From the IMG/VR virus record IMGVR_UViG_3300044615_000496, positions 1-39,423 of that record: a stretch of DNA of 39,423 nucleotides; one strand, given 5' to 3'. The stretch is from a virus. The position numbers were made by a program, and so were the translations under genes. Shown in pieces: positions 5,378 to 38,041 of this stretch; within the stretch, counting starts at the first letter, position 1; every line of letters begins with the position of its first letter. A model generated the notes under the pieces. It ran no database searches. It saw only the letters and a program-made list of their open reading frames with translations, and was not told the DNA's origin.

Positions 5378-6309
5378 GCGTCACCTCCTTGGTAATCCTT
5401 GAAACAGAATTCGGGCATATACAATTCATCGATGGACCCATATCCATCGGGGGTCCAATCACCGAACGACATCCGTGCAGACAGATCAGCCAATGCACGG
5501 TCCAACTGGGTCTTCCCAAGGTCGATAAACCTTTGGGGAAGGGTCTTGGCAATCACGCACGGAGAGGCCGTGCTGATGAGGACAAAGATGAGGGGCTCGT
5601 CACTGAACCCAGCGGCGGCTGCACCCTCTTGGTAAAGGGCTGATTGCAGCCCATACATGTAGTCCTTACATGCTCTCCAAAAATCCTTGGCAGGATTCCG
5701 GTACTTGGTGGTCTTGTAATCAACCACCCTGCCGTCATTGGTGATGGCGTCAGGCCTGCACCGCAGCTTGGTGCCGTTGCCTCTGGTCCATCGGATGGAG
5801 ACTTCCTTGTGGTCAATGCTGTCGAGCAGCTTGGCCACGGCCTTGTTCAGGGTGCATTGGGACTGAACCTCACCAAGAAAGTCTGCGTCCTGTGGAGTGA
5901 CCAAGATGGCGTCACCACCCTGATCGGCCACCCACTTCTTGCTGTCAGACTTAGTGGACAGAAGCCCAGTGCCGGTCAGATGCTCGGCGGGGATGACCTT
6001 GATGCGGTCGGCAACAGCATCCCACCCAAGCTCAAAGCACAGGTGAACAAGCGTTCCTCTGGCCATCGACTCCGAGTAGGGCGATGGTTCACACCGGAGG
6101 ATGTGCCGTCTATGGAAGTAAGACGGCGACTCGATGAAGTCCTTGATCTGGGAGCAGGACCAATGCTCCCGGTCGGCATGGTAGGCCTCGTTGGCCTCAC
6201 CATGACGGACTTCAAAAGAGCGGGCGAGGAGGGTCGAACTCCCGACATCTAGCTTGGGAAGCTGCGGGCCGTGAGAACCGGCAGCTTCAGCACAACTGGA
6301 GTTATCCAT
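5374..6309 (-). CDS. RecE/lambda-exo-like PD-(D/E)XK exonuclease; 5' part overlaps attP
   Basis: The 311-residue product has WSCSQIKDF...SPSYFHRRH near residues 50-70, typical of the first helices of RecE-type and Cas4-like nucleases. Glu169, Asp187 (CRPDA) and Asp197-x-Lys199 (VVDYKT) form the catalytic set. It would resect double-stranded ends so the ERF protein can anneal the strands. The only in-frame ATG/GTG/TTG before the domain is the ATG at 6309, and AAGGAT lies about 12 bases upstream. Codons 17-31 are the tRNA-Gly-like att segment, so residues 1-38 look like a non-conserved extension serving mainly to supply a start. The next ATG is codon 82, inside the domain. The start codon also overlaps that of the divergent integrase gene (CATG). 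Confidence 0.85.
   Translation of the reverse strand: MDNSSCAEAAGSHGPQLPKLDVGSSTLLARSFEVRHGEANEAYHADREHWSCSQIKDFIESPSYFHRRHILRCEPSPYSESMARGTLVHLCFELGWDAVADRIKVIPAEHLTGTGLLSTKSDSKKWVADQGGDAILVTPQDADFLGEVQSQCTLNKAVAKLLDSIDHKEVSIRWTRGNGTKLRCRPDAITNDGRVVDYKTTKYRNPAKDFWRACKDYMYGLQSALYQEGAAAAGFSDEPLIFVLISTASPCVIAKTLPQRFIDLGKTQLDRALADLSARMSFGDWTPDGYGSIDELYMPEFCFKDYQGGDA
6219..6260 (-). other. attP core: 3' half of tRNA-Gly(CCC)
   Basis: Read on the minus strand, the segment has a tRNA anticodon loop TTCCCAA (6260-6254, anticodon CCC), a 3' anticodon stem GCTAG (6253-6249), a five-base variable loop, T stem GGGAG / CTCCT around TTCGACC (6243-6227), 3' acceptor strand CGCCCGC (6226-6220) and U73 (6219), the usual discriminator of bacterial tRNA-Gly. 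The 5' half of a tRNA is absent: the bases above 6260 pair with only three stem bases and form no D arm or acceptor strand. A 3' tRNA half next to a tyrosine integrase is the hallmark of a phage attachment site. CCA is not encoded. Confidence 0.88.
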
Positions 6310-7282
6310 GAGGGTTCACAAATCCTTGTTTAGGCGGAAAAAACACAGTGGGGGAAGGCCCCCCAAAAAGAAGTCGCCATCTTCGGGGAGAACGGCACGA
6401 CCGCGAAAGATTGGTCAGGATAGTGGACGCCACGACGTACCACCAATGAGCGAAAAGACACCGCTGAAGGCAGTGCTGGACCGATACCTCTCGCAGAGAG
6501 AGGTCTGCCCCAACTACCGGCGGCATCTGTACAGGACAGTCGAGAGACTGTCCGCGTTTGGCGTGACATCCGTGGCCAACCTGAATCCTGAATCGATCAA
6601 CAACTGGCTCGACTCGCTGGCCTGCTCCAAGCAAACCAAGGCGAATTACCGGCGGCAGGCCTGTACGGTTGTGCGGGCTGCCCTCGGTCCCAGTGCCACA
6701 CATTTTACGGACGGGGTTCGCAGAGTCAAGGCACCGCTGTCACCGCCGGTTGCATGGACACAGGAAGAACTGCGGCGTCTGCTGCACCACGCCCGTCAAC
6801 TTTCTGGCAACCTACAGAGCGGGTGCCCGGCGGCCCTCTTCTTCAGCGGCTGGCTGTTGGCGGGGTACGAGGCCGGGCTGCGTTTCTCGGACTTGCTCAA
6901 CCTCAAGGCCCACCAGATTCGGGACGGCAGGCTGCACACCATCCAGCACAAAACCGGCGACGGCATCGTCCACGTTCTGTCACCGGAGTGCAGCCGGATT
7001 CTCAACGACCTAAGTGTCCGCTCAAAAGACGGCACCATTTTCCGCTGGGCACTGGCAGAGCGGTGGCTGCGGATCAGGTGGGCGCGTCTGGTGAAACAGG
7101 CGGGCGTGATTGGCACCTGCAAGTGGATGCGAAGGACCGGGGCAACGTGGGTCGAGGCGACCAATCCCGGTCAGGCCAGCCGCTGGCTCGGGCATCGCTC
7201 ACCGGAGCTTGCCATGAAGCACTATGTAGATAAGAGCCTACTGCCAAACTCCTGTCCATCACCGCCTCCAATAGCAGGCTAG
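6308..7282 (+). CDS. int: Tyrosine recombinase / phage integrase
   Basis: The only confident plus-strand gene encodes 324 residues. A basic N-terminal arm (GGRPPKKKS) is followed by a SAM-like core-binding domain (about 50-130) and the catalytic domain. The catalytic set is Arg192 (GYEAGLRFSDL), Lys215 (IQHKTGDG), Lys272 in place of the box II His, Arg275 (KWMRR), His296 (LGHRSPE) and the nucleophile Tyr306 (KHYVD). It would integrate the phage at host tRNA-Gly using the att segment 50 bases away. The ATG at 6308 has GGAG six bases upstream. The ATG at 6446 is an alternative without a ribosome-binding site, which would leave a 137-base divergent promoter region. Its start overlaps the exonuclease start (CATG) and its stop overlaps the convergent virion gene stop (CTAG). 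Confidence 0.93.
   Translation: MRVHKSLFRRKKHSGGRPPKKKSPSSGRTARPRKIGQDSGRHDVPPMSEKTPLKAVLDRYLSQREVCPNYRRHLYRTVERLSAFGVTSVANLNPESINNWLDSLACSKQTKANYRRQACTVVRAALGPSATHFTDGVRRVKAPLSPPVAWTQEELRRLLHHARQLSGNLQSGCPAALFFSGWLLAGYEAGLRFSDLLNLKAHQIRDGRLHTIQHKTGDGIVHVLSPECSRILNDLSVRSKDGTIFRWALAERWLRIRWARLVKQAGVIGTCKWMRRTGATWVEATNPGQASRWLGHRSPELAMKHYVDKSLLPNSCPSPPPIAG
6338..6369 (-). terminator. Possible minus-strand terminator upstream of exonuclease
   Basis: On the minus strand a GGGGG(G)/CCCCC hairpin (6364-6350) is followed six bases later by TTTTTT (6343-6338). It would stop virion-operon transcripts that run antisense through the integrase before they reach the exonuclease. The gap between stem and T-run makes it imperfect, and the DNA is also the 5' part of the integrase ORF. 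Confidence 0.3.
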
Positions 7283-27114: not shown

Positions 27115-28080
27115 TTATTCCAGTACCAGTGTTTCGCCGCCCTTGGCAGTGCTGGCAGACCGCCAGACGGCAAGGTCAACTTGATTGGCAACGAGCCGGG
27201 TGGCCCCATCACAGTTCGCTATCACCACACCAGCCGGATGCTTGGAGCGGGCTGACAGCACCTGCAACTCCCAATCCTCCTGCGATAGCGTAGTACATCC
27301 GGCTGGCCTGCCGTTCAGGGCAGTCGGATACCTAACAGTTTCCTCGCAGGCAGTGCTGTTAGGAGTGAGCCATGAGGTGTATGTTTGCCCGCCGTTTGCA
27401 AAAGAGACATCAGAAGGTGGCCCCTGCCATGAGTCCTCTGGGCCTGTGACCGTTGTTTCGGACAGCAACATGGTCTTGGAGAGGCCGTCTGTGACATGTG
27501 CTGGCCTGACTCCCACCACCATAGTGAAAGGGGCACCGCCGTGGGCAACGCCGGACTTGGTGGCCTGACCGTAGTTGGTGTTGCCGTAGTTGCAGACGTA
27601 ATTCATGCGAACCCTAGCCCAGCGATCCAAGTCCCATTCGTTCTTCTGGAGCCCGATGTCAGAAGGGCAGGCCATGAATGACAAGCCAAGCATTCCCCTG
27701 CGGGCCTCTTTGTTGGCCTCGTTGGTGAAGCTCTTGTCCTGATCGAACCTCTTGATGGTGGCCTCTGACTCAATGTAAGGCAGGACGTAGCTCAAAAAGC
27801 CATGATCGTGATGCCAGTACAAATCCCCGTCTACCACCGGACTCTTCTTCGCCAGATTGGCATAGCTGCCGTCGTAACACTTGGTGCCTCTTGGGAATGT
27901 CTTTTGGGCCGATTCATGGTTGATGCAGGCCAGCGACAACTGCTTGAGGTTGTTGGTGCAGGTAGTCCTACGGGCCGACTCACGGGCAGCCTGAATGGCC
28001 GGGAGGAGAAAGCCAACGAGGGTGCCGATGATGGCAATGACCACCAGCAACTCAACGAGGGTGAAAGCTTTTTTGTGCAT
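27115..28080 (-). CDS. DUF1559 type II pseudopilin-like protein (planctomycete-type)
   Basis: The 321-residue product begins MHKKAFTLVELLVVIAIIGT, a type II secretion/type IV pilin N-terminal methylation site and hydrophobic helix. LPAIQAARESARRTTCTNNL and KQLSLACINHES follow: the DUF1559 signature of planctomycete proteins. It also has HHDHGFLSYVLPYIE, a NYVCNYGNTNYG segment and a C-terminal HPAGVVIANCDGATRLV section usual in this family. A prepilin peptidase and pilus machinery would be needed to export it; none is encoded here, so the host would supply them. It lies two bases after the PEP-CTERM-like gene, inside the fibre operon, which is unusual for a phage. Confidence 0.88.
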   Translation of the reverse strand: MHKKAFTLVELLVVIAIIGTLVGFLLPAIQAARESARRTTCTNNLKQLSLACINHESAQKTFPRGTKCYDGSYANLAKKSPVVDGDLYWHHDHGFLSYVLPYIESEATIKRFDQDKSFTNEANKEARRGMLGLSFMACPSDIGLQKNEWDLDRWARVRMNYVCNYGNTNYGQATKSGVAHGGAPFTMVVGVRPAHVTDGLSKTMLLSETTVTGPEDSWQGPPSDVSFANGGQTYTSWLTPNSTACEETVRYPTALNGRPAGCTTLSQEDWELQVLSARSKHPAGVVIANCDGATRLVANQVDLAVWRSASTAKGGETLVLE

Positions 28081-28082
28081 GG

Positions 28083-28739
28083 TCAGATTTTCTTTCTGGC
28101 TGCCAGCCAGCCGAGTGCCGCGATCAGTGCCCCGATGGGAGAGCCGCCAAACTCCGGTACTTCTGCGGGCGGTGCGGGGGCGACCTCCGCACTCAGCACA
28201 ATGTCGTTGAGTGCCATGTAGTCAGTCCCGCTATTGAGCCCCCCGGTGAACGCAGGGGCGATCCACCTGAGTTCATGGCTACCCGCACTCACCACCCCCG
28301 GGCCGGTCAGCGTCACTTGAAAGGGAACATTTGACTCAGAGTTGGTGAACGTCCCGAGCGAGAGCCCGTCGAAGAGGGCACTCACGGTATAGGAAGGGGC
28401 GGTCGGGTAGGAGTTGGTGTTGCCCTGATACCAGAAGGACAAGCCGGTGATGTTCAAGGAATCAGATGTCGTGAAGGCGATGCTCTGGTAGGTCGTGTCG
28501 CTGAAGTACCTGACCATGCCCGCATTGCCAAATGGAGAGCCCAAGTTTTCGATCCCGGCGTTGGGGGTGGTCCAAGTTGCACTAACTCCGGTAGCAGTCT
28601 CGCTTGCCGGTGCGGTCAGGGCCCCAACGCTGGCATTCTCAAAGCTGAAGCTGAAGACTTCGATGGTGCTGGCCTTGACTGGCTGTAGGAGACAAGCCAA
28701 AGCGAGAAGGATCGTGCCGATGGATGCGGTGGTCTTCAT
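28083..28739 (-). CDS. Secreted protein with PEP-CTERM-like C-terminal anchor
   Basis: ATG 28739, with GAGGA five bases upstream, gives 218 residues. The N-terminus (MKTTASIGTILLALACLLQP, then VKAS) is a signal peptide. The middle is a beta-sandwich-like domain (FSFSFENASVGALTAP...GTDYMALNDIVLSAE) of the kind found in PEP-CTERM and lectin-like proteins. The C-terminus reads PAEVPEF, a hydrophobic segment IGALIAALGWLAA, then RKK: a PEP-CTERM-type sorting tail in a VPEF variant. Such proteins are processed by exosortase at the cell surface. The gene is adjacent to the DUF1559 pseudopilin, and both sit between fibre genes, so it may be a captured host surface gene. Confidence 0.75.
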   Translation of the reverse strand: MKTTASIGTILLALACLLQPVKASTIEVFSFSFENASVGALTAPASETATGVSATWTTPNAGIENLGSPFGNAGMVRYFSDTTYQSIAFTTSDSLNITGLSFWYQGNTNSYPTAPSYTVSALFDGLSLGTFTNSESNVPFQVTLTGPGVVSAGSHELRWIAPAFTGGLNSGTDYMALNDIVLSAEVAPAPPAEVPEFGGSPIGALIAALGWLAARKKI

Positions 28740-28765
28740 GGTGTTCCTCGCGGTAATGTGGCTCA

Positions 28766-30766
28766 TCAGTACGCGGCCTTCCAACGAATGCCAGAGAATG
28801 CTGCCTCGCTTGACTGTGCGCCCGGACTTACGGAGATGTCGCGGTTTGTTTTGCTAACGGTGCAGTAGCCGTAGGTAACGGCACTCCCAACGAGCCGCAT
28901 GGCAAGCGGATATTTGGCTTCAAGTTCCGCCAGCGGGAATTGTGGCGGCAGTCGCAGCGGCACCCACGCGCCGCTGCCAGCAGTGAACGTCAGAGTTCCC
29001 TTGAGTTCGATGAACCCGCCAAGCATTCGGGCTTCAATCTGCGTTGAGGTTGTTTCCTTAGTGCCGTCCATTCGGATGATCGGTGTCCAGCTAATGTCTG
29101 CCGGTGGCATTTTCGTACCACCCGCAAGCATCAACTTCACCTCATCAAGCACAGACTTCTTGAAAGCGGCCAAGGCTGGGTCATTGATGTTGGCGGCACT
29201 AGTTGGGTTAATGGCAGCCAGCTTGGTGTCAACTTGTGCCTTCGTGTAGGCATCAACTGTCGTGCTCTCAAGGGCAGCAAGGCGGGCATTTACGGGCTCA
29301 AAGTCTGATTGATACGGGATGAGTTCCTTGCCGCCCGGGGTATCAAGCACCAGACGGGGGCCGTAGCCCTCATTGGTGTCGATGTAGACCAAGCCGGGAT
29401 TGCCAGTAGAGATGGCATCACCAAAGGTGTATCCCTTGGCGACCATAGCATTGGCGACGATGTTCTGGGTGTTGTCGGCCCTCTTGGCATACCGATCATC
29501 GCTCTCTGCCCGGGTGTAGATGCTGTCGAAGACTGCCTGAAGCTGGGTCGTGATGAGCGCGGTCGTGGTGATCGGGGCATAGCCAGACAGGTCAGACAGG
29601 TAGGCAACCGTGTTCTCGGGGCCACCAGCCACCTGAGTGATGAGCCGGTCACCGGCAGCACCCATAAACAGTTCGCTGAGTTCAAGCCCCCCGGTCTGAA
29701 GATTCGACACTGAAACGTCTTGGCTAACCAGCGCGGCAATGATATTGGCTGAAGTGAACTCGTCGCCATGAACAAGGGTGTGGATGGCCTTGCCGTCATT
29801 CCAATTCAGCCGCCAGTGGTCACCTTCTTTGGCCGGAGTCAGAGATAAGCCGCCCTTCCATGCAATCGGGGAGTTGGCATCCCCTGTGAGCGACACCATG
29901 GAGGGTTCGATCTCAACGTCCCGAATGGCATCCAGAACGTCGATCTGGCCAGTGCCGATCTCAGTGCCCAGATTGGACACGATCTCTTGGAGGGAGGTGA
30001 TCTGACCCAGAAGCACGTTGTCGTTGGCAATGGAGAAGTCCTTGTCGGCTTCCAGCTTGGCATCGACTTCGGTCTTGGTGTAAACGTCATCCTTCTGGAC
30101 AACCGTTGCAAAGCCTTGGTTCAAGAGTCGGAAGTATTCCCTAAACTCAGACTCCAACGTGCCGTACTGGCCTTGAAAGGCAGCGAACTCAGACTGATCG
30201 GCCTTGCCAGCAATAAGCCCATCAACCTCGGGCTTGGTGTAACCGCCGGTCAAGGCGAAGATGTCCACCTGCTGGGGCTTGCCAAAAGGCTCGTCCAACG
30301 CATCGCTGGTCAACTTCAGCCACTGGCCTTCAGCCCTCTGCATGACGATCATGGAGGGATTCTGGGGAGTGGGCAGGCCCGCTTCGCTCTTGACGATCTT
30401 GGCAAACGAAGTCAACTGACCAGACAGCACGATGGTGGTCTGGTATTCCTGCCGTGTAATTGACACAAGGGTGCCAACATCCTTGAAGTAGTGCAGGCCG
30501 TCATCCAGAACGGAAAAGCCATCTTCCAACCCCTGAGGCGTGTCGGCCCCGGCGTCGGGAACTGCACCGGCATGGAGGGTAATGGCAGATTCTGGGATGT
30601 TTGCCAGAGCGTCGTTCAGGTCAGTGAGGGTGGCGAACCCGCCGGCACCAATGGCATCGGTGACGAACTGCTCTGTTGCCAGACCAGCCGTGTCCACCGA
30701 GCCGCCAGCACCACCGGCTGCAACCCACTGACCATTCGACTTCACATAAAGCTGTTTAGCACACAT
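28766..30766 (-). CDS. Large tail-fibre protein
   Basis: ATG 30766 gives 666 residues; TTG 30772 is an upstream alternative. The protein carries several YTK-x-E/Q-VD fibre units (YTKPEVDGLIAG, YTKTEVDAKLEAD, YTKAQVDTKL) and the related YTRAESDDRYA, typical of phage fibre shafts. The C-terminal 110 residues begin PPADISWTPIIRMDG and form a beta tip with a W-x-P-x-R segment. That C-terminal region is related to the C-terminus of the next gene upstream (PPVDFDWTPLVSVKG). Its start overlaps the stop of that gene by 11 bases. Confidence 0.8.
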   Translation of the reverse strand: MCAKQLYVKSNGQWVAAGGAGGSVDTAGLATEQFVTDAIGAGGFATLTDLNDALANIPESAITLHAGAVPDAGADTPQGLEDGFSVLDDGLHYFKDVGTLVSITRQEYQTTIVLSGQLTSFAKIVKSEAGLPTPQNPSMIVMQRAEGQWLKLTSDALDEPFGKPQQVDIFALTGGYTKPEVDGLIAGKADQSEFAAFQGQYGTLESEFREYFRLLNQGFATVVQKDDVYTKTEVDAKLEADKDFSIANDNVLLGQITSLQEIVSNLGTEIGTGQIDVLDAIRDVEIEPSMVSLTGDANSPIAWKGGLSLTPAKEGDHWRLNWNDGKAIHTLVHGDEFTSANIIAALVSQDVSVSNLQTGGLELSELFMGAAGDRLITQVAGGPENTVAYLSDLSGYAPITTTALITTQLQAVFDSIYTRAESDDRYAKRADNTQNIVANAMVAKGYTFGDAISTGNPGLVYIDTNEGYGPRLVLDTPGGKELIPYQSDFEPVNARLAALESTTVDAYTKAQVDTKLAAINPTSAANINDPALAAFKKSVLDEVKLMLAGGTKMPPADISWTPIIRMDGTKETTSTQIEARMLGGFIELKGTLTFTAGSGAWVPLRLPPQFPLAELEAKYPLAMRLVGSAVTYGYCTVSKTNRDISVSPGAQSSEAAFSGIRWKAAY

Positions 30767-31436
30767 ATGCAATCATCCCGTCGAAGGAAACGTGAGTAAA
30801 TTTGCCGCCACTGGCCACTACGTTGAGGTCGCCAGAAGTAGTTAGGGTGACTGACACGAACTTGAAGGCCAGTCCGTTTTCCTTCCCCGTGACCACCGCA
30901 CTGCAATTCACCAGCGGCTTCGGCAAGCTGGCAGGGAGAGTACGAACGGTCGTGTAGGTTCCAGCAGACGAGTAGGTGAAAACCAATTCGCCACGCAGGA
31001 GGAGAACGCCATTGGTCTGCTTGGCTTCGATCAGGCCGGTGCCTTTGACAGAGACAAGCGGAGTCCAGTCAAAGTCCACGGGCGGCTCTTTACCACCAGC
31101 AATCATGGTGCGGACGATGGACTTAACTTCTGGCTCGGTCATGGACTTGCCCTGAGGCTGTCCCTCAATGACCGGCTGCGTGGCGGGGGCGGCGACTGGG
31201 GTGATCTCAGGTCCCAGCCACAAGTCACCGTCCTTGCCAACCGGCTCTGACTCCTGCTCGTAGACAATGGGCAGGTCTTCGGCCTTGGCATAGCCGGTGA
31301 GGTCAACATTCCCAGTGGCAGCATTGGCAAGCAGGGCGTCGATCTCAACGTCGCTGTAGACCCCCACAATGCCGTTGGTGAAACGGGCTGAGTCCGGGTA
31401 AACCTTGATCGGGGCTGGTCTGGCTGGGGCTGGCAT
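30756..31436 (-). CDS. Short fibre protein with shared C-terminal tip domain
   Basis: The 226-residue product has YSDVEIDALLAN near residue 28, a fibre motif like the YTKxEVD units of the next gene, and a middle section with a Glu/Pro-rich linker (QPVIEGQPQGKSMTEPEV). Its last 105 residues (PPVDFDWTPLVSVKG...KFTHVSFDGMIAYVC) correspond to the tip domain of the large fibre, showing the two genes share a duplicated module. ATG at 31436 lies three bases after the upstream stop. Confidence 0.72.
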   Translation of the reverse strand: MPAPARPAPIKVYPDSARFTNGIVGVYSDVEIDALLANAATGNVDLTGYAKAEDLPIVYEQESEPVGKDGDLWLGPEITPVAAPATQPVIEGQPQGKSMTEPEVKSIVRTMIAGGKEPPVDFDWTPLVSVKGTGLIEAKQTNGVLLLRGELVFTYSSAGTYTTVRTLPASLPKPLVNCSAVVTGKENGLAFKFVSVTLTTSGDLNVVASGGKFTHVSFDGMIAYVC

Positions 31437-31439
31437 GGG

Positions 31440-32372
31440 TTACTCTTCGATGAGGGGCAGCAAATATTTCTTCCCGCCAACTAGCACATAAACCCCGCCT
31501 ACCATGTACGGCTGGGTGATCTCGGTGCCGTCTGCGGACAGGCCTATGATCGTGCCGTCGAGTTGCTGAGTGACGGGCTGGTCTAGGTAAGTGAATAGCG
31601 GGGTGGGGTCGCCTCCGGGGGCAGGGGCCGGGGCCTCAAGGAGCGGCATCAAGAACCGCTTGCCGCCCACCAGCACAGGCACAGCCCCAATCATGTAGGG
31701 CTGGTGAATCTCCATGCCGTCTGGGGAGAGCCCGATTGGCAATCCGTTGTCCTGCTCGACTACAGGCTGCCCTGCATAGACCGGCGGGTTGGCATTACTG
31801 AACGAGGAGGTCGGAGTGGTGGCCCCAAGCTGGGCACGAACCCATTCTTCGGTGGCTATGTTCTCTTCGGTAATCTCCCTAAGGGGAGTGCCGTCTTTTC
31901 GGAGCGAGAGCTTGGCCGTGCCGTCAATGTCCGTGGTAATGAAGAGCGTGTTGGGGCCGTCAATGTCAATGGCCTTGGGGGCAATGACCTGACCCCGAAT
32001 GGCAGCCAGAACGTCGATAATGGTGAGGTCGCCAACGATCTCGGTGGGGTTGATCCACAGGTCGCCTTCGGCCTCGCCGGGCGGGGGCTCAACGTCCGAG
32101 ACAATGTGGCTGCCGCAAGAGCCGCCCGTGCCCTGACCGTCTACCAACCAAGGAAGCTGGGACCACCTGAGCCAGCCGTCACCGATCTTGAGGTTGGGGC
32201 CGTCAGTGGCACCAATGACGTAGCCCAGTTCTCCGCTTGCGAGTCGCGGATCATTCTTCAACCAATTCTCAGCCGTGTCCTGCCTGCACCTGATGCGCCA
32301 GTAGCCCCTCTCATCGGAGGCGCAGTTGGAGAACGTCGAGGGCGAGTGGCAGGGGGTGGCTGGAAGAGACAT
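31440..32372 (-). CDS. Tropism-determinant-like fibre protein with internal repeat
   Basis: The 310-residue product has an N-terminal TAENWLKNDPRLASGELGYV...LKIGDGWLRWSQLPW segment, the pattern of phage fibre N-terminal domains related to the Bordetella phage major tropism determinant. The C-terminal part is a tandem duplication: LPIGLSPDGMEIHQPYMIG with LVGGKRFLMPLLEAP, then IIGLSADGTEITQPYMVG with LVGGKKYLLPLIEE. AGGAG six bases upstream supports ATG 32372, and the GTACATAAA motif lies 17 bases upstream. It is the first fibre gene after the portal region. Confidence 0.75.
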   Translation of the reverse strand: MSLPATPCHSPSTFSNCASDERGYWRIRCRQDTAENWLKNDPRLASGELGYVIGATDGPNLKIGDGWLRWSQLPWLVDGQGTGGSCGSHIVSDVEPPPGEAEGDLWINPTEIVGDLTIIDVLAAIRGQVIAPKAIDIDGPNTLFITTDIDGTAKLSLRKDGTPLREITEENIATEEWVRAQLGATTPTSSFSNANPPVYAGQPVVEQDNGLPIGLSPDGMEIHQPYMIGAVPVLVGGKRFLMPLLEAPAPAPGGDPTPLFTYLDQPVTQQLDGTIIGLSADGTEITQPYMVGGVYVLVGGKKYLLPLIEE

Positions 32373-35859: not shown

Positions 35860-37536
35860 TCAGGCGTAGTACACTTCGGAATAGCTAGCAGGGGCTAAGT
35901 AAATAGCACCAGTTTTGCCATGCTCTTTGTCCCTACGCTCTTTCCATGCCTGCCACCATGGTGCTTCCACCTTTACCTCTGGCTTGTGGTAATCGGGGCT
36001 ATAAGCACACAGGTATCTGAGGCAGTCCACCAGATGGAACTCGCCTCTCTTGTTGGGCTCGTCTGTCACGATGGTGGTGCCCGCCACGCTCACGGTCTTC
36101 TTCTTGTACCGCTTCATCTCCCGCTCAAAGTTGGGCATCCTGCTCCTGACATACCGGATGCGAGGGGTTCCGTCCGGGCGGATGTGGAGCATCTGCCGGA
36201 CAGCGTGAAGGCCGGACTGGATGTCATCAGAGCCGGGGATGAAGCTTGAGCCAGTCACCTTGGACTTGATTCCTAGGGCTGAAAGCTGTTCGGAATACTG
36301 GTCCTGAGGGGATTTTCCTGATCCAATATCCGTCAGGCGGGCACCGTGCGAGTCAATCAAAAAGGCATAGAACTGCTTGCCGCCCGCCTTCTTATGAAAC
36401 TCAGTGGCAAATATGGTGGCGTTGCAGTTCCTTATGTAAAGCTCGTCGTAGCACACCACCCGGTCGCCTTCTGGTGGGACGGCTGCAAACAGCACAGCGG
36501 TGACGGCGTGACCCGGGTCCACCACGGCATACCGGCACCAATCGTCTGGGATGTCCGGTGTCTCTAGCTCGCAGGAGTGGATGTTGGGGTTGAAGTTCGG
36601 GTAGACGAGGATGCTGTCGATGACGAACTCGCCCTCGGACCTCTGCCTAAGAACGTCATCACCAATGGCCGACCACCGCTCGATGGCCTTCCGTTTCTCA
36701 TCGCCATCGATATGGGGGTTATCAAGAAACCTCAGGACAAACCGCCTGATGTCCTTGGTATTGCCAACTTCCTCTGCCTTGTCGGCTCGTTCGTTTAGCC
36801 CAAGCAGAGCCTCGTTCTTGGAATGTGGCATGGCTGACCAACAGAAGAGACCTTTCCTGTCGGCAAGGCGAGCTTGCATTTCAGGAACCCATGACTCGTT
36901 GTTAAGGTCTTCATCTATATGGACCCTATCAGCTTGAAAGCCTTGGGGAGGATCACCCTCTGAAGAGAAGCAATAGATTGTCCAGCCGTTATGTAGCTCG
37001 CAGGAGTTCAAGTAGCCTGCTGACTTCAGCACCCATGAGAAGCTCTTGACCATTCGGGGCGGGATCAGGGGCGGGGCTGGCTTGGCTTCCTTGGCTCGGT
37101 CGGCGTCGAGAACCGGATCGTAGGCTCGGAACTGGCCCGTCGCCTTGTCCTTGATGATCTTGAAGGCCCCGGCCTTGAACAAATAGGGCACTACGACTAA
37201 TCCGATGTGTTTCCAGTTCTGGCCGACGATGACGAGATTCCCGCCCTCTTTTCTGTACTTTCCTTCGACGGGATGGGTGCCAGTTGCGGCCCATGCGTCC
37301 TCTATGAATGAACAGAGGGACTTGCCGGAACGATTTCCACCCAGCACAAGTGTTTCACTAGAGCGGCACTCATGAAACTCCTTCTGCCTGTCGGTTGGCC
37401 TGTACAGCCTCAAGGCTTCTATGCGCCTCTCTGCTAGCTCGCTCTGCAAGCTCTTCAACTCGTCCCGCTGGAAGCTCGATATGCTCTGGACCGTTGGGAG
37501 TGGGGTTGGTGGAATCTGGTTCTTCTTCTTGGACAT
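35860..37536 (-). CDS. terL: Terminase large subunit
   Basis: The 558-residue product has the ATPase motifs GGNRSGKS (Walker A, 66-73) and HIDED (Walker B, 206-210), and a C-terminal RNase H-like nuclease domain with AVVDPG (Asp340), LIDSHGAR (Asp395) and HLVDCLRY. This is the packaging motor that cuts and translocates phage DNA. ATG 37536 is supported by TAAGG seven bases upstream, although it lies 167 bases inside the preceding gene. It is followed, after a 78-base gap, by the portal-region genes. Confidence 0.93.
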   Translation of the reverse strand: MSKKKNQIPPTPLPTVQSISSFQRDELKSLQSELAERRIEALRLYRPTDRQKEFHECRSSETLVLGGNRSGKSLCSFIEDAWAATGTHPVEGKYRKEGGNLVIVGQNWKHIGLVVVPYLFKAGAFKIIKDKATGQFRAYDPVLDADRAKEAKPAPPLIPPRMVKSFSWVLKSAGYLNSCELHNGWTIYCFSSEGDPPQGFQADRVHIDEDLNNESWVPEMQARLADRKGLFCWSAMPHSKNEALLGLNERADKAEEVGNTKDIRRFVLRFLDNPHIDGDEKRKAIERWSAIGDDVLRQRSEGEFVIDSILVYPNFNPNIHSCELETPDIPDDWCRYAVVDPGHAVTAVLFAAVPPEGDRVVCYDELYIRNCNATIFATEFHKKAGGKQFYAFLIDSHGARLTDIGSGKSPQDQYSEQLSALGIKSKVTGSSFIPGSDDIQSGLHAVRQMLHIRPDGTPRIRYVRSRMPNFEREMKRYKKKTVSVAGTTIVTDEPNKRGEFHLVDCLRYLCAYSPDYHKPEVKVEAPWWQAWKERRDKEHGKTGAIYLAPASYSEVYYA

Positions 37537-38041
37537 CGATGTGCCTTACTCCTCCATAGGTCAGGACGGCCTGCCTGAGACGCTTGTCAATCTCGGCCTC
37601 AAGCTCCTCCTCTGAATACAGGTCGATGGGCTTCTTGGCACCGCCCTGCTCGGTGTTCTTGGACGCCAGCCGAACGACCATTTCAAGCAGGGAGTTGCGC
37701 ATCCTGCTGCCCGGGGCGGCCTCAAAGTATTGCTTCATCACCAGACTGGCAAACCCGTTTGCACCACCAAAGTAGTGCATGATCCCCTCTAGAAGCTCTG
37801 CTGTGTGGGGGATGTTGGAGCCGCCCGAGACCGTCCGAGAGAGGTAGGTGCCAATGGCAGTCCTCTCCAGCCGCTCCATCTGGGCCTGCTGTTTGATCTT
37901 GACCTTGCAGGGGCGGCAGACCCATTGATAGCTGTGCTGGGTGCCCTTTACCCTAGGAAAATGCTTAGGGTTAAGCGGCTTAACTTGCTTGCAGTTGTCA
38001 CACTGCCGGGTCTGGTCGGGTGGTTTAGGTGTTTCGCTCAT
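37370..38041 (-). CDS. Zinc-finger helical protein, possible terminase small subunit
   Basis: The 223-residue product has an N-terminal zinc knuckle (CDNCKQVKPL, then WVCRPCKVKIKQQ) followed by a helical domain (GIMHYFGGANGFASLVMKQY, NSLLEMVVRLASKN) and an acidic EEELEAEIDKRL helix. A DNA-binding finger plus helices directly before the large subunit fits a small terminase or its substitute; the fold is not verified. ATG 38041 overlaps the upstream stop (ATGA). The last 55 codons overlap the terminase in another frame. Confidence 0.55.
   Translation of the reverse strand: MSETPKPPDQTRQCDNCKQVKPLNPKHFPRVKGTQHSYQWVCRPCKVKIKQQAQMERLERTAIGTYLSRTVSGGSNIPHTAELLEGIMHYFGGANGFASLVMKQYFEAAPGSRMRNSLLEMVVRLASKNTEQGGAKKPIDLYSEEELEAEIDKRLRQAVLTYGGVRHIDVQEEEPDSTNPTPNGPEHIELPAGRVEELAERASREAHRSLEAVQANRQAEGVS

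Follow-up and report, generated by a model that had tools for sequence, protein, structure and literature searches.

Substrates of exosortase (EpsH), as captured by the PEP-CTERM models TIGR02595 and PF07589, share an N-terminal signal peptide, a beta-rich body without a recognised enzyme domain and a C-terminal region of about 24 residues that is composed of a PE motif, a hydrophobic helix and a basic end. The Pro-Glu-Pro motif is near-invariant in this family, and most of its genes form single-gene operons located behind large intergenic regions (PMC1569441, the family-defining paper). A related archaeal family, PEF-CTERM (TIGR03024), has a tail that opens with the tripeptide PEF. A different type of system is represented by phage morons and superinfection-exclusion surface proteins, for which a single host-like gene is found between phage genes and the product is predicted to act at the host envelope. 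Here we describe a phage gene for a 218-residue protein that resembles each of these systems in part. It lies in a 39.4 kb IMG/VR record, analysed over its entire length and referred to below as the window, which carries genes for a terminase, a portal protein, an Erf-type annealing protein, an exonuclease, a helicase and collagen-like fibres (Table 1).

Table 1. Features of the window discussed in the text, with the basis of each assignment
Feature	Coordinates	Strand	Basis
Accessory gene, 218 aa: signal peptide, beta-sandwich body, C-terminal VPEF/hydrophobic helix/RKK tail	28083..28739	minus	ORF, sequence, codon usage, fold prediction, absence at the same site in 4 relatives
Leader from fibre stop to the ATG of the 218-aa gene: GAGGA Shine-Dalgarno-like site, alternative ATG	28740..28766	minus	sequence reading
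Predicted signal peptide, residues ~1-23, MKTTASIGTILLALACLLQPVKA	28671..28739	minus	sequence reading; model helix 7-17
C-terminal anchor, residues 194-218, VPEFGGSPIGALIAALGWLAARKKI	28086..28160	minus	sequence reading; helix 201-215; no sorting-model match; chance test
DUF1559 (SBP_bac_10)/H-X9-DG prepilin-like gene, 321 aa	27115..28080	minus	PF07596, N_methyl; kept in 4 relatives
Upstream tail-fibre-like gene, 668 aa, directly adjoining DUF1559 in relatives	28766..30772	minus	comparison with relatives
Tyrosine-integrase-like gene	6308..7282	plus	PF00589 at 6758-7234, E 1.2e-7, just under curated cut-off
Terminase large subunit, by which the phage was placed	35860..37536	minus	relatives of 41% and 38% in two planctomycete genomes

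The reading frame from the ATG at 28739 to the TGA stop at 28085-28083 is a real coding gene, because it resembles the other genes of this phage in codon usage and GC3 (0.124 log-units per codon, compared with 0.10-0.17 for most phage genes); the original prediction had placed it correctly, leaving the strand unstated. The GAGGA site lies 5 nt upstream of this ATG, which is separated from the fibre stop by 26 bases, and a second in-frame ATG at 28766 overlaps the TGA stop of the fibre gene. At the other end, exactly two bases (CC) separate the stop codon from the ATG of the DUF1559 gene at 28080. The gene is co-directional with the fibre genes and sits within a run of same-strand phage genes; a scan for sigma-70-type promoters found no consensus promoter for it, and terminator-like sites around it occur at chance level.

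Four other records hold close relatives of this phage, and in all four DUF1559 directly adjoins the fibre gene (TAC TGA CA ATG) with nothing in between, whereas in the window this junction carries an insert of about 680 bases that is flanked by a CTGA(C) microhomology repeat of 4-5 bases. No match to the 218-aa protein was found in these four relatives, and more distant ones (terminase identity 58-88%) gave no DUF1559 match and differ in their fibre regions. Since the two genes abut in the four relatives and the fibre regions differ, sequence comparison shows a clean single-gene accessory insertion in a variable tail-fibre cassette, that is, the moron arrangement of an extra gene between genes that abut in relatives. 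An assembly chimera is unlikely, as each junction falls at the edge of a gene and the sequence on either side is colinear with the relatives. Searches of viral contigs, phages, genome contigs and plasmids returned no homologue, with pattern searches reaching close relatives only and genome searches sampling each phylum. Only three weak matches came from 392 Planctomycetota and 289 Verrucomicrobiota genomes, and neither of the two inspected gave a protein with such a tail. A search with the tail alone in 265 planctomycete genomes gave a best E of 6e-4, which we judge to be chance given that the loci inspected encode no exported protein with such a tail; the only PDB sequence matches, to antibody light chains (E 0.14 and above), are likewise chance. 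As the gene is thus confined to one phage and has no homologue in these collections, there is no evidence of selection acting on it.

Both ends of the protein carry the features by which exported and anchored proteins are recognised. Sequence and hydropathy predict a signal peptide cleaved at MKTTASIGTILLALACLLQPVKA-S, and the C-terminus, VPEFGGSPIGALIAALGWLAARKKI, contains a hydrophobic helix, about 14 residues long, and then RKK, as expected of the helix and basic end of a PEP-CTERM protein. A single-sequence AlphaFold2 model places helices at residues 7-17 and 201-215 with nine strands between them, in line with the beta-sandwich-like body, signal peptide and VPEF-helix-RKK tail that had been proposed for this protein; its mean pLDDT is only 58, however, which is low. 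The nearest Foldseek neighbours of the body are carbohydrate-binding modules of families CBM36, CBM35 and CBM6 (best E ~1e-6, query-normalised TM 0.38), a weak resemblance that, with a model of this quality, may be taken as a hint. The two-ended architecture itself is far above chance: when the residues of the protein are shuffled 200,000 times, signal peptide and anchor recur together in 65 cases and a PE-x anchor in 5. No ORF combining the two ends is encountered among 648 from related phages (length at least 120 aa), whereas the window contains one, the 218-aa gene.

It is at the level of family membership that the comparison with exosortase substrates breaks down. No NCBIfam sorting-signal model, a set which includes PEP-CTERM, PEF-CTERM, VPDSG, MYXO-CTERM and similar models, matched either the full protein or the isolated tail at E<=10, and Pfam, including PF07589, gave no sorting-signal match at E<=1. 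The models work, because a consensus PEP-CTERM tail scores ~1e-8 in NCBIfam and three true PEP-CTERM proteins encoded on phage contigs are detected by PF07589 at 4e-9 to 2e-6. In addition, the tail reads VPEF, the second proline of the near-invariant motif being replaced by phenylalanine. Given the absence of a model match and PEF in place of PEP, we do not file the protein as PEP-CTERM: judged by its residues, it has the layout of an exosortase substrate and lies outside the family, and it may nevertheless function like such a substrate. The exosortase-type reading originally advanced, which was to fall if no sorting-signal model matched, is therefore supported only in part, for a phage gene whose predicted product is exported and anchored with a substrate-like layout.

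Phages do carry proteins with the canonical tail. The pattern VPEPxxLALLG was found in 82 IMG/VR stretches (loci L086-L167), and 71 ORFs in them terminate with this tail (for example L165:903-1538, L116:363-1082 and L161:4122-4832). Their bodies fall into at least 15 groups without detected homology to one another (largest n=43), close pairs have dN/dS of 0.08-0.29, a terminase-family match is present on 26 of the 38 contigs checked, and on several contigs the PEP-CTERM gene stands among phage-type genes. None of ten such proteins had a PHROGs match at E<=0.01, the one compared with INPHARED phages had no match there, and the open literature searched yielded no publication on phages as carriers of PEP-CTERM proteins. 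On four of these contigs (G736, G730, G718 and G720; loci L159, L144, L123 and L125) the terminase match contains 2-3 in-frame stops of mixed type, which could reflect an intron, an intein or decay. One might propose that phages recurrently encode exosortase substrates that modify the host surface and that the window carries a diverged PEF tag accepted by a planctomycete exosortase; we consider this generalisation somewhat doubtful.

Regarding the phage itself, the integrase-like gene, whose PF00589 counterparts in two relatives exceed the curated cut-off, suggests that it is probably temperate. The terminase of one close relative (G004) is 99.8% identical to that of the window, and terminase relatives of 41% and 38%, with portal genes alongside, occur in 2 of 392 Planctomycetota genomes; portal relatives in planctomycete genomes reach 32-40%. 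Relatives of the window's DUF1559 protein are present in 120 of 294 Planctomycetota genomes (best 41%), and the DUF1559 family has been described as apparently restricted to Planctomycetes (PMC10632474). Based on the terminase, portal and DUF1559 relatives together with this restriction, a planctomycete host appears likely. Exosortase (PF09721) is found in 3 of 8 candidate host-group genomes, including the two that carry a terminase relative, and one of these two (G005) has three exosortases and a classical PEP-CTERM protein (VPEPSS...). Several other features of the window deserve mention in their own right. An HNH/endonuclease-VII-like gene (37370-38041) overlaps the start of the terminase gene (35860-37536) by ~167 bases in a different frame, an overlap kept in relatives down to 58% terminase identity; the fibre gene at 31440-32372 has a weak match to Mtd_N, the N-terminus of a major tropism determinant (E 9e-5, below cut-off); and the frame at 38843-39292 matches phrog_16914 (E 7e-22), which carries a sporulation-protein annotation, the host of this phage being a likely non-sporulator.

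The adjacent DUF1559 protein (PF07596, 3e-43; prepilin-type N-terminus N_methyl, 4e-6) is confirmed as a member of its family, and its position two bases away was correctly predicted. It is 95-96% identical in the four relatives with dN/dS of 0.15-0.27, values indicating that the gene is under purifying selection. At the DNA level it is 95.9% identical to its counterpart in G001 (L002:9995-10963), while other DNA shared with G001 is mostly 72-83% identical apart from one fibre stretch at 92.6%; being more alike than most other shared DNA, DUF1559 may have been exchanged between phage lineages recently, as this comparison suggests. A hybrid origin of its 5' end (MHKKAFTL, as opposed to MQNRKAFTL in relatives), which would have signalled that the insert derives from a host locus where a DUF1559 gene came next, was considered; there are too few differences in this stretch to tell. 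DUF1559/H-X9-DG prepilin-like genes are common on viral contigs (loci L208-L279), which probably belong to planctomycete viruses and some of which are longer than 150 kb: the DUF1559-type prepilin-start pattern occurs in 72 other viral stretches, 48 of them with an ORF of the H-X9-DG type. That the 218-aa protein and its neighbour form a functional, surface-remodelling pair, as had also been suggested, might appear attractive in view of their two-base spacing, common strand and predicted export. Such spacing, however, is also to be expected from insertion into an operon; moreover, four relatives keep DUF1559 without the 218-aa gene, and no PE-x anchor tail was found in the fetched flanks of the 72 stretches. 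The pair is thus largely refuted and very improbable, DUF1559 not being dependent on the inserted gene.

The model that we favour, if only tentatively, is that the phage gained this gene recently as an accessory and that it codes for a protein anchored in the envelope and perhaps able to bind glycans. In this model, a single moron-type gene entered the tail-fibre cassette of a planctomycete phage that is probably temperate; the protein would be exported by the Sec machinery of the host and retained in the envelope through its hydrophobic C-terminal helix and basic end, possibly becoming a client of a host exosortase for which PEF can stand in for PEP. The beta-sandwich would then be exposed on the cell surface or lie in the periplasm and could most plausibly bind envelope glycans there, altering adsorption of other phages and resulting in superinfection exclusion or surface conversion. 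The gene, its anatomy and its insertion are shown by the sequence; Sec export, envelope anchoring, exosortase handling, glycan binding and the effect on adsorption are the steps that we infer. We favour this model because the two-ended anatomy is above chance, the codons are phage-like, the insertion is clean, an integrase-like gene is present and the terminase and portal have planctomycete relatives, and also because of the exosortases and PEP-CTERM protein of G005, the restriction of DUF1559, the CBM matches and the true PEP-CTERM proteins on phage contigs. Its weak points are the failure of every sorting model to match, the near-invariance of PEP, the occurrence in one phage only, the low pLDDT and the patchy distribution of exosortase among host-like genomes. 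Another explanation is possible and nearly as likely, namely that the tail is an ordinary envelope anchor: the signal peptide would be removed, the helix would stay in the inner membrane with RKK inside, and no exosortase cleavage would follow, while the function at the envelope may be the same. Neither PEP-CTERM, PEF-CTERM nor any other sorting model matches, whereas the controls do, phenylalanine replaces the diagnostic proline, and exosortase is found in only three of the eight host-like genomes. Nevertheless, a short hydrophobic helix with PE spaced from it as expected, and with basic residues clustered one position from the C-terminus, constitutes an exosortase-substrate layout that is atypical of generic anchors.

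Less favoured explanations question the function or the location of the protein. It could conceivably be a transient passenger, meaning a piece of a host gene that illegitimate recombination brought in and that, expressed or not, is of no benefit to the phage; this would fit a singleton among all relatives, without a homologue in any collection searched, in an insertion bounded only by the short CTGA(C) repeat. Yet the frame is intact, has its own ribosome-binding site and matches the phage in codon usage, and it was placed exactly between two reading frames without harming either of them, which makes this outcome unlikely. A role in the virion, for example as a fibre-associated or decoration protein, could be read from its position between fibre genes and from weak Foldseek matches to phage tail fibre proteins; a signal peptide and a C-terminal membrane anchor would, however, be out of place in a virion protein assembled in the cytoplasm, and near-identical phages do without it, so that we regard such a role as very unlikely. 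Finally, LALAC within the signal peptide fits the general lipoprotein pattern loosely, and if it served as a lipobox (Cys16), the N-terminus would be lipid-anchored. This can hardly be correct, given that the residues at -3 (Ala) and -2 (Leu) deviate from the consensus, the cysteine is followed by a hydrophobic LL, and a normal cleavage site, VKA-S, lies downstream.

If phages do supply substrates to the surface-sorting machine of their hosts, this would represent an additional way of converting the surface or excluding superinfection in bacteria with a poorly known surface biology. The 218-aa gene alone is of modest value in this respect, being a singleton with a putative sorting role for its tail; it is because true PEP-CTERM proteins recur on other phage contigs that the general question becomes testable.

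Taken together, the protein shares with PEP-CTERM substrates the signal peptide, the PE motif, helix and basic end of the C-terminal region, and a beta-rich body in which no enzyme domain is recognised, but differs from them in having PEF, in matching neither TIGR02595 nor PF07589 and in being encoded inside a co-directional run of phage genes. With archaeal PEF-CTERM proteins it has in common the tripeptide that opens the tail, yet it comes from a bacterial phage and is not matched by TIGR03024 at E<=10. The true PEP-CTERM proteins of other phages are, like the 218-aa protein, predicted to be exported, provided with an exosortase-type tail and located on phage contigs, whereas their tails are canonical VPEP and their bodies have no detected homology to its own. 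Without a detected sequence relation to any known moron or superinfection-exclusion protein, it nevertheless resembles them in being a single host-like gene placed between phage genes, with a product predicted to act at the host envelope.
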